NCBI GenBank assembly: GCA_000996025.1
Contig: LBYF01000006.1
Coordinates: forward strand, 6,219 to 42,688
Direction: 5' to 3'
From: Parcubacteria group bacterium GW2011_GWA2_40_14
GTDB lineage: Bacteria; Patescibacteriota; Minisyncoccia; Phycocordibacterales; DATDWN01
Length of the DNA stretch: 36,470 bases
In this document: positions 3,550 to 7,877 of the stretch, in pieces
How the letters are laid out: every line of letters begins with the position of its first letter
How positions within the stretch are numbered: position 1 is the first letter of the stretch
The notes under the pieces: model-generated
Database searches by the model: none
The model's input: only the letters and a program-made list of their open reading frames with translations
Told to the model about the DNA's origin: nothing
Made by a program: the position numbers and the translations under genes

Positions 3550-3576
3550 ACTTGCTAACACTGGGTGTTAGCAAGT
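3550..3576. repeat. REP-like hairpin, left boundary of the RAYT gene
   Basis: A 12-bp stem (ACTTGCTAACAC paired with its complement) closes on a three-base loop TGG. It ends 11 bases before the transposase start codon. The same stem with the complementary loop CCA lies directly after the gene (4291-4321), so the two copies are in inverted orientation. Confidence 0.85.
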
Positions 3577-3587
3577 ATAATTAATAT

Positions 3588-4289
3588 ATGAGAAAGGAAA
3601 CTATCGTCATTGATTCATTCGTTCATGTTATTAATCGTGGAACAAAACAGATGCCCATATATAGGCAAAAGAGTGATTTGTGGAGGCTTTTATTTAGTTT
3701 ATTTTACGTTAACAATTTTTCGTCAAAAAATTGGGCACGAGAACTTGAAAGAGCAGAAATTGACCCCCAAAGTTTCATTTGGCCGGAAGTTCTTGGGGTA
3801 AGAAAACCAATAGTTTCTATTTTAGGTTTTACATTGATGTCAAATCATTTCCATTTGATTTTAAAGGAAATTATTGAAGGAGGTATTAGCAGTTTTTTAC
3901 ATAAATTTACAATGGGACATTCAAAATTTATCAATGCCAAATACAAAGAAAGTGGAAATTTGTTTCAAGGAAAGTTTCAGTCAAGAACAATTGAAACGGA
4001 CGAATATCTTCGTAGAGTAAGCGTGTATGTGATGGTTAAAAACACTTTTGAGTTATATCCAAAAGGAGGATTAAAAGGAGCCATAAAAGATTTTGAAGAT
4101 GCGTGGAAATGGGCTATTCAATATCCATTTTCAAGTCTCGGTGATTATGCTGGTGTAAGAAATTCACCAATTTTAGATAAGGACTTACTTGGAGAAATTT
4201 TTGATTCCCCAGAGGATTTTAAAGAATTTTCAAAAGACTATATTTTAGGAAGAACTCCAGATGAAGATATGGAAGAATTTGAATTTTAA
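3588..4289 (+). CDS. REP-associated tyrosine transposase (RAYT, Y1/IS200-like superfamily)
   Basis: The 233-residue protein has the HUH metal-binding motif of Y1 transposases in MSNHFHLIL (about residue 85) and a C-terminal DEYLRRVSVYVMVKN helix holding the likely catalytic tyrosine, after NLFQGKF. The N-terminal FVHVINRGTKQMPIY matches the family start. RAYTs are single-copy relatives of IS200/IS605 TnpA that nick and join single-stranded REP hairpins. Here hairpins of the same sequence stand 11 bases before the ATG and 1 base after the stop, and a related hairpin sits inside ruvC (7665-7693). The gene separates murJ from lepA and has no ribosome binding site. It appears intact. Confidence 0.88.
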   Translation: MRKETIVIDSFVHVINRGTKQMPIYRQKSDLWRLLFSLFYVNNFSSKNWARELERAEIDPQSFIWPEVLGVRKPIVSILGFTLMSNHFHLILKEIIEGGISSFLHKFTMGHSKFINAKYKESGNLFQGKFQSRTIETDEYLRRVSVYVMVKNTFELYPKGGLKGAIKDFEDAWKWAIQYPFSSLGDYAGVRNSPILDKDLLGEIFDSPEDFKEFSKDYILGRTPDEDMEEFEF

Positions 4290-4290
4290 T

Positions 4291-4321
4291 AAACTTGCTA
4301 ACACCCAGTGTTAGCAAGTTT
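4291..4321. repeat. REP-like hairpin, right boundary of the RAYT gene
   Basis: A 14-bp stem with arm AAACTTGCTAACAC and loop CCA. It is the exact reverse complement of the core of the left hairpin (3550-3576), so the pair forms an inverted set around the transposase. It may also terminate the transposase transcript, since a short T run follows. Confidence 0.85.
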
Positions 4322-6321: not shown

Positions 6322-6393
6322 TTATCTAGATATTGCAAAGTGGGTCAGGCCGATGGCGATTGCATCAAATTCATTCTCTTTACCATTTTTCAG
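6322..6393 (-). pseudogene. Relic of a second ruvC 3' end
   Basis: On the minus strand this stretch reads LKNGKENEFDAIAIGLTHFAISR and a stop. The intact ruvC at 7254 ends DDEFDAIAIGLTHFAIHRQR and a stop. Over about 42 aligned bases there are five differences, all at third codon positions, so this copy diverged while still under coding selection and is not a fresh local duplication. Nothing upstream of about 6393 resembles ruvC. Confidence 0.75.
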
Positions 6394-6438
6394 TACGTTA
6401 TACTATATATTATGTATCATATTATGTATCGTTTTATA

Positions 6439-6474
6439 TACACCTATAGCATGCTATAGCGTGTTATAGGTGTA
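6439..6474. repeat. Palindrome with GCTATAGC core, downstream of the PaaX/Cas2-like gene
   Basis: A 36-base near-perfect palindrome: outer arms TACACCTATA and TATAGGTGTA, central GCTATAGC. The only mismatches between the arms allow G-U pairs. A sister element with the same arms and core is at 7147-7181 on the other side of the gene. Confidence 0.8.
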
Positions 6475-6488
6475 AATCAAATATGTGT

Positions 6489-7061
6489 TTAATCTGTATT
6501 TAAATTGAAATGCTTTCTAATAGAAGAATCGTTTTCTATTGAATCAACTATCAAATATAGAAGATCTTTGCCAATATGCATGTGAGCTTTGAGTAAGTTT
6601 ACCAAATCTTCGCATGGATATGGATAGACCCACACGCTATCCTGAATCTTTAGAAAACCGATTTCCAAAAGAGTGTGTCGGAGCTTTTCTCTTTGGGACT
6701 TTTTCTTTTCTGGTATGTCAAATATGAGCAAACGCCATTTTTTATCCCACTTTTTAGGTTTATCTAATGCATAATTTATCAATTCCAATGAAGACAATTT
6801 CTCCTCTCCTTTTTCTGTTAATTCAATAAATCCATTTTTGTATCTCAAAAAACTATTTCTCACCATATTATCGCGAGACCTTTTGATAGCTTCTTTTTGT
6901 CTTTTGTTGGATACTAAGCCAATCGATTTCATATATTGCAGGGCATTTGGGGCGAGAAGCGCAACTCCTAACAAGCCAGCGACTTTTACTGTAGACAAAA
7001 TTGCTTTTCGCACATACTCCTTTGATATTTTTTTCTTTAAATTATCTTCTATTTTTCCCAT
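6489..7061 (-). CDS. PaaX-type/Cas2-like winged-helix protein (orphan)
   Basis: The 190-residue protein has an N-terminal part suited to a winged helix (VRNSFLRYKNGFIELTEKGEEKL) and a C-terminal ferredoxin-like part, KKWRLLIFDIPEKKK then LLEIGFLKIQDSVWVYPYP. This pattern is shared by PaaX-type regulators and Cas2-fold proteins. No CRISPR array, cas1 or phenylacetate genes are nearby, so neither a CRISPR nor a PaaX metabolic role is supported. The gene lies between two related palindromes (6439-6474 and 7147-7181) and between a diverged ruvC tail and the real ruvC, which suggests it travels as a unit. DNA binding is a reasonable inference; the function is unknown. Confidence 0.7.
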   Translation of the reverse strand: MGKIEDNLKKKISKEYVRKAILSTVKVAGLLGVALLAPNALQYMKSIGLVSNKRQKEAIKRSRDNMVRNSFLRYKNGFIELTEKGEEKLSSLELINYALDKPKKWDKKWRLLIFDIPEKKKSQREKLRHTLLEIGFLKIQDSVWVYPYPCEDLVNLLKAHMHIGKDLLYLIVDSIENDSSIRKHFNLNTD

Positions 7062-7146
7062 ATATTTATTTTATCACTACCGTTTTACTTGTAGTCATAT
7101 TGGTATATTATGCGCTTCTGTACTTATTCTAATTATACCACTATTA

Positions 7147-7181
7147 TACACCTATCTTTGCTATAGCGTAGTATAGGTGTA
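7147..7181. repeat. Palindrome with GCTATAGC core, upstream of the PaaX/Cas2-like gene
   Basis: A 35-base element with arms TACACCTAT and ATAGGTGTA around CTTT-GCTATAGC-GTAG. Arms and core match the element at 6439-6474; the four-base spacers differ. It sits about 85 bases ahead of the start codon, where it could be an operator or an element end. Confidence 0.75.
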
Positions 7182-7253
7182 TCTTTTAAGAGGATACCAT
7201 TTATTTATAGTCTTTTAATTTATCTAGTTATTTAATTTAATTACTTAATTTAC

Positions 7254-7751
7254 TTATCTTTGTCTATGTATTGCAAAATGGGTCAGGCCGATAGCGATGG
7301 CGTCGAATTCATCATCACTATTTGTTTTGGAGTTCACGACAATTAGTTTTTTGACCATACTTATCATCTGTCTTTTTTCACTTCTTCCGTAGCCAGTTAT
7401 AGCTATTTTCACACTATTTGGTGTGTATTCAAAAATATCCAAACCGAGAGAACTTCCAGCGTACAAAATTACTCCGCGAGCTTCGGCCACAAGCATTGCT
7501 GTTTTTTGATTCCCACTGAAAAAAAGTTTTTCTGTCACAAGTGCTTCAGGTTTGTATTTTTTTATAACCTCTTTTATTTTATTTCCGATCAGAGCCAATC
7601 TCTCATGATGGGGAAGTTTGCTAGATGTTTTAAAACACTCCGAATAAACCAAAACCTCTTTTTCAACTTGCGCACACTGGGTGTGCGCAAGTTTTTCCAA
7701 CACAGCAATACCAAGTCTCTCGTATCCCGGGTCAATTGAAATAATTTTCAT
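7254..7751 (-). CDS. ruvC: Holliday junction endodeoxyribonuclease RuvC
   Basis: RuvC cuts Holliday junctions symmetrically in complex with RuvAB. The 165-residue protein starts MKIISIDPGYERLGIAV, with the first catalytic Asp at position 7. It continues with a central TEKLFFSGN (catalytic Glu) and ends with DDEFDAIAIGLTHFA, which carries the last acidic residues. Residues 20-29 (KLAHTQCAQV) are encoded by a REP-like hairpin (7665-7693) and look like an in-frame insertion in the beta-hairpin after strand 1. The order on the minus strand is ruvB, yebC, ruvC; ruvA is elsewhere (19092). A second, diverged ruvC tail lies downstream at 6322-6393. Confidence 0.92.
   Translation of the reverse strand: MKIISIDPGYERLGIAVLEKLAHTQCAQVEKEVLVYSECFKTSSKLPHHERLALIGNKIKEVIKKYKPEALVTEKLFFSGNQKTAMLVAEARGVILYAGSSLGLDIFEYTPNSVKIAITGYGRSEKRQMISMVKKLIVVNSKTNSDDEFDAIAIGLTHFAIHRQR
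7665..7693. repeat. REP-like hairpin within ruvC
   Basis: A 13-bp stem with arm AACTTGCGCACAC and loop TGG. It matches the RAYT-flanking hairpins (arm AACTTGCTAACAC) except that the TA in the arm is GC, with the matching change in the other arm, so pairing is preserved. It is read in frame as residues 20-29 of RuvC. Confidence 0.85.
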
Positions 7752-7824
7752 ACTAAAAGTATAGTATATTCTGGAACAAGTAGGTATTCTATGTAAGAAT
7801 ACATCATCAATATATGATATATGT

Positions 7825-7852
7825 AATTACCACCAGTATACTGGTGGTAATT
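7825..7852. repeat. Perfect 28-base palindrome between yebC and ruvC
   Basis: Arm AATTACCACCAGTA followed immediately by its complement. The centre CAGTATACTG is shared with the neighbouring palindrome (7848-7877) and with 30121-30148. Confidence 0.85.
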
Positions 7853-7877
7853 TACTACAGTATACTGTAGTAAATTA
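7848..7877. repeat. Perfect 30-base palindrome between yebC and ruvC
   Basis: Arm TAATTTACTACAGTA followed by its complement; it overlaps the previous palindrome by five bases. The pair fills the gap between the yebC stop and the ruvC start and could act as tandem hairpins in the yebC-ruvC transcript. Confidence 0.85.

Follow-up and report, generated by a model that had tools for sequence, protein, structure and literature searches.

The perfect hairpin inside ruvC probably belongs to a mobile family of short palindromic repeats (23–29 bp), which enter genes and persist only where they stay in frame within a dispensable loop. The window, that is, the whole 36,470-nucleotide stretch of DNA analysed here, reads AACTTGCGCACAC TGG GTGTGCGCAAGTT at this place (Table 1), a 13+3+13 inverted repeat whose arms are 100% complementary. 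As RNA, the hairpin folds with −20.7 kcal/mol (z −5.2), a value equalled by none of 200 shuffled sequences, and its fold as DNA has a z of −6.4. The hairpin that an earlier note had picked out from the letters is therefore real, and translation bears out the stretch of RuvC that it was said to encode. Its stem equals that of the copies around the transposase except for TA/GC, as had been stated, and those two copies also have the loop of the ruvC hairpin (TGG, read as CCA on the opposite strand). The observation is thus confirmed and its interpretation only in part: a palindrome family, an insertion and a loop stand, while domestication, compensation within ruvC and RAYT membership are not supported.

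Table 1 Features of the window treated in the text
Feature	Coordinates	Strand	Remarks
Palindrome copy, TA variant, loop TGG, upstream of transposase	3550..3576	+	Stem match
Y1/HUH transposase-like gene	3588..4289	+	233 aa; Pfam Y1_Tnp 26.9 bits, cut-off 23
Palindrome copy, TA variant, loop CCA on +, downstream of transposase	4291..4321	-	Inverted relative to upstream copy
ruvC (name based on Pfam)	7254..7751	-	165 aa; Pfam RuvC 117.8 bits
Palindromic element, GC stem variant, in frame in ruvC	7665..7693	-	Encodes KLAHTQCAQV, RuvC residues 20-29

By comparison with close relatives, the ruvC hairpin is an inserted segment, with a net gain of six residues. A RuvC match is present in 11 of the 12 genus genomes, and the loop between a conserved EK and a conserved E is five residues long in seven of these 11, rather than the same-length segment with unrelated codons that the earlier note had set against an insertion. 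It has 11 residues in the genome holding the window (G000), 9 in G005, 13 in G009 and 20 in G003, and the short form recurs in five genomes of other genera of the same family; the named close relatives returned by the RuvC search are mostly Candidatus Zambryskibacteria. A gap of ten to fifteen residues had been expected in relatives, and the insertion holds at a smaller net size of only six. The hairpin, at 29 bases, is longer than the net gain of 18 nt; some of the native loop has therefore been replaced, and the junctions are not clean. No target-site duplication was found, and no movement was seen.

The same loop carries other palindromes elsewhere. That of G005 contains CTTCCCAAAGG-5-CCTTTGGGAAG, the core of which is also present in the topA and recG of G005, and a more distant genome (L184) has ACTTGGAAAC-3-GTTTCCAAGT at this position. 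Among 31 distinct RuvC genes (44 sequences minus 4 not extracted and 9 duplicates; L194 and L195 left out), five GC-containing perfect hairpins of at least nine pairs were counted, where 100 synonymous codon draws gave 0.11 on average and never more than 2. Three of the five lie in the same loop, in three genomes and with three different stems. A separate palindrome was observed in the ruvC of G007 (L021), in a second loop before the SDDE motif (residues ~133–150): it reads INYGGINYGGNASVV, with the palindrome ACTACGGAGGC-3-GCCTCCGTAGT, which recurs in the topA of G007 and beside a transposase of that genome (L072).

The AlphaFold2 model of the protein has a mean pLDDT of 91.1, and residues 21–30 form its least certain block (mean 62). 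In this model, the insert is the turn between the beta strands 12–21 and 31–41; the surface position proposed earlier thus agrees with a segment modelled as a low-confidence surface loop between two strands. The best PDB matches in Foldseek are RuvC structures, headed by 7xhj with a TM-score by query of 0.86, and D7, E74, D147 and D150, which we take to be the RuvC catalytic residues, are invariant among 26 aligned relatives. Because the RuvC fold and these putative catalytic residues are retained, the gene with its longer loop is probably functional. RuvC would then work normally, and the inserted peptide would have no selected function. The suggestion that the element had been domesticated as protein sequence implies a selected function of the peptide and goes further than is needed: a tolerated insertion suffices.

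The hairpin belongs to a family dispersed over its own genome (637,511 bases in 26 contigs). The pattern ACTTGCNNACACNNNGTGTNNGCAAGT, with at most three mismatches, occurs at 12 places in G000 and its backwards control at none; a chance origin of the family is excluded. The 23-base palindrome core is found in 14 copies, eight of which lie in frame within conserved genes (ruvC, ksgA, rnpA, uvrA, pyrG, infB, topA and a methyltransferase-like gene, all but ruvC named by inspecting their protein sequences). The other six do not; two stand beside the transposase and four elsewhere. The inner 10-base arms are perfectly paired in all 14, and the loop is TGG or CCA in 13 and TCG or CGA in the remaining one. 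A hairpin with the same core and another outer stem (G000:C1:30387, L035) is excluded from this count, and a candidate in uvrB (L038) was dropped, having the 11-base core without a hairpin. The ksgA of G000 bears, besides the copy read as LLTPSVSK, a second palindrome of a different family that encodes FPRAWPWGK (C8:7146-7170, L159).

A second family, ATGTCAAGG-5-CCTTGACAT, occupies 13 places in G000, 11 of them inside ORFs and two flanking another transposase. The ORF sites are in recJ (twice), cysS, argS, nifS (twice), uvrB, trxB, alaS, leuS and one ORF without a gene name; ten of these 11 copies read one frame, (M/V)S(R/K)xxLD. Loops are less uniform here, with GGCAT or ATGCC in nine of 13. 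Palindrome-free forms exist in relatives for ksgA, pyrG, topA, trxB, nifS and comEC, and in each of three genomes the topA loop is occupied by a different palindrome; the infB and rnpA loops vary too widely to be scored as occupied or not, and these two sites were omitted from the site table. The recG palindromes, which come from two families, do not look like simple insertions: the segments that carry them have kept their length and are similar to the native peptide. The second-family peptide of recG in G003, G007 and G008 (L198, L249 and L226) is, for example, MSRGILD where the native one is FSSGILD. Replacement seeded by one arm was considered as a general rule and rejected, since empty sites resemble one arm above background at only 8 of the 16 sites compared (Wilcoxon p 0.56; ruvC, recO and the second nifS copy left out), with recG-1 and recG-2 showing the strongest resemblance. 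A recO palindrome of G007 was not counted as a family copy: it has a different outer stem, and even the G000 sequence comes close to a palindrome there.

The variants of the stem bear on how the GC form came to lie in ruvC. Only two of the six reading frames are open in the TA form, which in that of ruvC reads LANTQC followed by a stop (TAG). A copy of this type could therefore not have persisted at this site, whereas the GC form leaves all six frames open. Since the GC form also occurs between genes (G000:C15:7382-7408), the copy in ruvC may already have had it on arrival, and the double change was not necessarily made in ruvC. Most copies of G007 have a third kind of stem, TC, and the argS copy of G007, in the same frame as that of ruvC, reads LTHTTCEQV. 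Across ten distinct copies from two genomes, three of ten pairs have changed on both sides, and the covariation score of the arms is 0.187 as opposed to 0.067 for shuffled arms, with none of 500 shuffles scoring as high; some pairs in the G007 copies are imperfect, three of the ten distinct copies being unpaired at one position. Of the compensatory change that the earlier note had seen, the covariation across variants thus stands, and compensation need not have taken place inside ruvC, given the intergenic GC form.

The transposase-like protein of the window has N86, H87, H89 and Tyr147 invariant in 16 aligned sequences. It matches the REP-associated model NF047646 only remotely, at 23.4 bits, below the cut-off of 80, and has no PHROG match. 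No GTAG-like guide tetranucleotide is conserved beside the hairpin foot in the 14 flanks, where the information lies mostly in stem-extending bases (AC before the core, GT after it). The label RAYT-type therefore fits the arrangement, a hairpin family flanking a Y1 transposase, and does not denote a proven membership, in view of the bit score and the missing GTAG-type guide. Y1 transposase-like genes gave 33 matches in 12 of 17 genomes of the taxonomic family, of which 30 loci were tested, three matches having no locus. A perfect hairpin adjoins 23 of these 30 loci, compared with 3.9% of 280 background windows, and seven loci are without one. Hairpins stand on both sides at 11 loci, in ten of them with one stem family on both sides. 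The palindromes thus appear tied to the transposases, which, to judge from these sequences, may mobilise them.

Based on the above data, we propose that the transposase of the window, or a relative of it, spreads the palindrome as single-stranded DNA. A copy that enters a gene would persist only if it is in frame and the loop can be spared. At ruvC, the palindrome has taken the place of part of the native loop.

Comparison with G007, which holds the nearest transposase (81% identical), suggests that copies may also change after their arrival. All eight places in G007 have the loop GTA or TAC. In ksgA, the element is present in both genomes within a shared insertion, 5 of the 31 preceding bases differing, and this insertion is absent in the eight other genus genomes that have the region. 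In uvrA, the flanks are common to G000 and G007; this case is uncertain, as the reading frame of G007 is interrupted a short way upstream, close to the end of a contig. Both genes show the same paired stem change between the two genomes (A-T to C-G) plus a loop difference, the loop being TAC in ksgA and GTA in uvrA of G007 and CCA in both genes of G000. In trxB, the second-family loop is GGCAT in G000 and ACTCC in G007. Orthologous copies could have been overwritten in place or inserted repeatedly at the same points, and the flanks shared at orthologous sites favour overwriting. A broader reading, which we put forward tentatively and regard as somewhat less probable than its opposite, is that most of the palindromes lie within essential genes and are converted where they stand to the current stem and loop of the genome, the Y1 transposase (or replication) repeatedly overwriting short stretches of unrelated proteins.

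The spread and likeness of the copies might also come about without the transposase, if single-stranded palindromes anneal, or templates switch between copies, during replication; the transposase would then be a passenger with two copies of its own. Orthologous copies do differ between genomes in the way that the other copies of each genome do, and some sites, such as recG, show no change in length. We nonetheless hold this account to be rather unlikely, because a passenger would not need the adjoining palindrome seen at 23 of 30 loci or the single family on both sides at ten of them. Mobilisation by the transposase remains our preferred reading. A true domestication, in which LAHTQCAQV alters how RuvC works or the gene is regulated through the hairpin in its mRNA or DNA, would fit the perfect pairing of the inner arms in every copy and the presence of copies in repair genes (ruvC, uvrA, uvrB and recJ, with recG in relatives), which recalls the intragenic REPs as described in PMC3733652. 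It is improbable, however, as the same palindromes are also found in translation, nucleotide and redox genes (infB, pyrG, trxB, alaS and leuS), relatives do without the ruvC copy, and the segment is modelled at low confidence. Least credible of all is an origin in place by template switching, one arm being copied from the other as in quasipalindromes and the likeness to other copies reflecting common local rules: such switching is described as homogenising inverted-repeat arms and inverting spacers (PMC8604942, PMC8794818), and the opposed loop orientations of ksgA and uvrA in G007 would suit it, but local copying cannot account for arms and a loop that recur across the genome (14 core copies), and the arm comparison with empty sites, which did not include ruvC, was negative.

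Several known systems resemble the preferred reading of a mobile palindrome. The Rickettsia palindromic elements (RPEs) are described as several palindrome families that lie in frame in conserved genes, in a genome that is reduced, and occupy solvent-exposed positions; orthologues are reported to carry different families close together (PMC10969869, PMC3767692). In both systems palindromes are carried in frame inside unrelated conserved genes. The present elements, by a comparison of descriptions only, differ in their length of 23–29 bp as opposed to ~100–150 bp (PMC3767692), in a transposase gene flanked by the same palindromes, and in phylum. Intragenic GTAG/CGTC REPs, according to the account in PMC3733652, are short palindromes in coding regions, often of DNA repair genes, and GTAG REPs are linked to RAYT genes; repair genes are likewise among the carriers here. 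These REPs are given there as mostly extragenic, with GTAG or CGTC at one end, whereas most copies here are inside genes (8 of 14 in the first family, 11 of 13 in the second), and the first family lacks a conserved tag of this kind. In REPtrons, a TnpA-REP/RAYT gene is flanked by REPs (PMC6006769), and the system found here is similar in that hairpins, in inverted orientation, stand on either side of a Y1 HUH transposase, in its family-specific stems and in its many palindrome copies. It departs from them in a transposase remote in sequence, a tyrosine motif YVMVKNT as opposed to the Y..NP described for most subclasses (PMC6006769), and the lack of a guide tetranucleotide. Because the elements differ from REPs in location, guide tetranucleotide and transposase model and from RPEs in length, we set them beside these classes and not within them.

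New here are the phylum, the preponderance of copies inside genes and the link to transposases, together with indications that the ksgA, uvrA and trxB copies adopt the resident stem and loop. Our searches of open PMC papers brought up no report of such palindromes in Patescibacteria, which does not prove their absence in print. Protein-coding palindromes, known in Rickettsia and a few REP-rich species, are thereby extended to Patescibacteria, where a candidate mobiliser lies beside them. The copies provide a natural record of insertion-tolerant loops in RuvC, topoisomerase I, CTP synthase and other proteins, and orthologous sites with changing palindromes could serve to test the concerted evolution of dispersed short repeats. 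Caution is advisable with such loops in these genomes, which may be recent mobile DNA and not adaptation.

Further features lie near ruvC in the window. At 6322–6374 there is a remnant of a ruvC 3′ end, identical at 45 of 53 bases to positions 7260–7312 of the intact gene ~0.9 kb away. Between the two lies a gene (6489–7061) with a PaaX central Cas2-like domain, flanked by related palindromic stretches (TATACACCTAT...ATAGGTGTA) at 6432–6481 and 7145–7182, as if gene and repeats had been inserted there. On the other side, between ruvC and the next gene, two perfect palindromes (AATTACCACCAGTA... and TAATTTACTACAGTA...) adjoin each other at 7824–7877.
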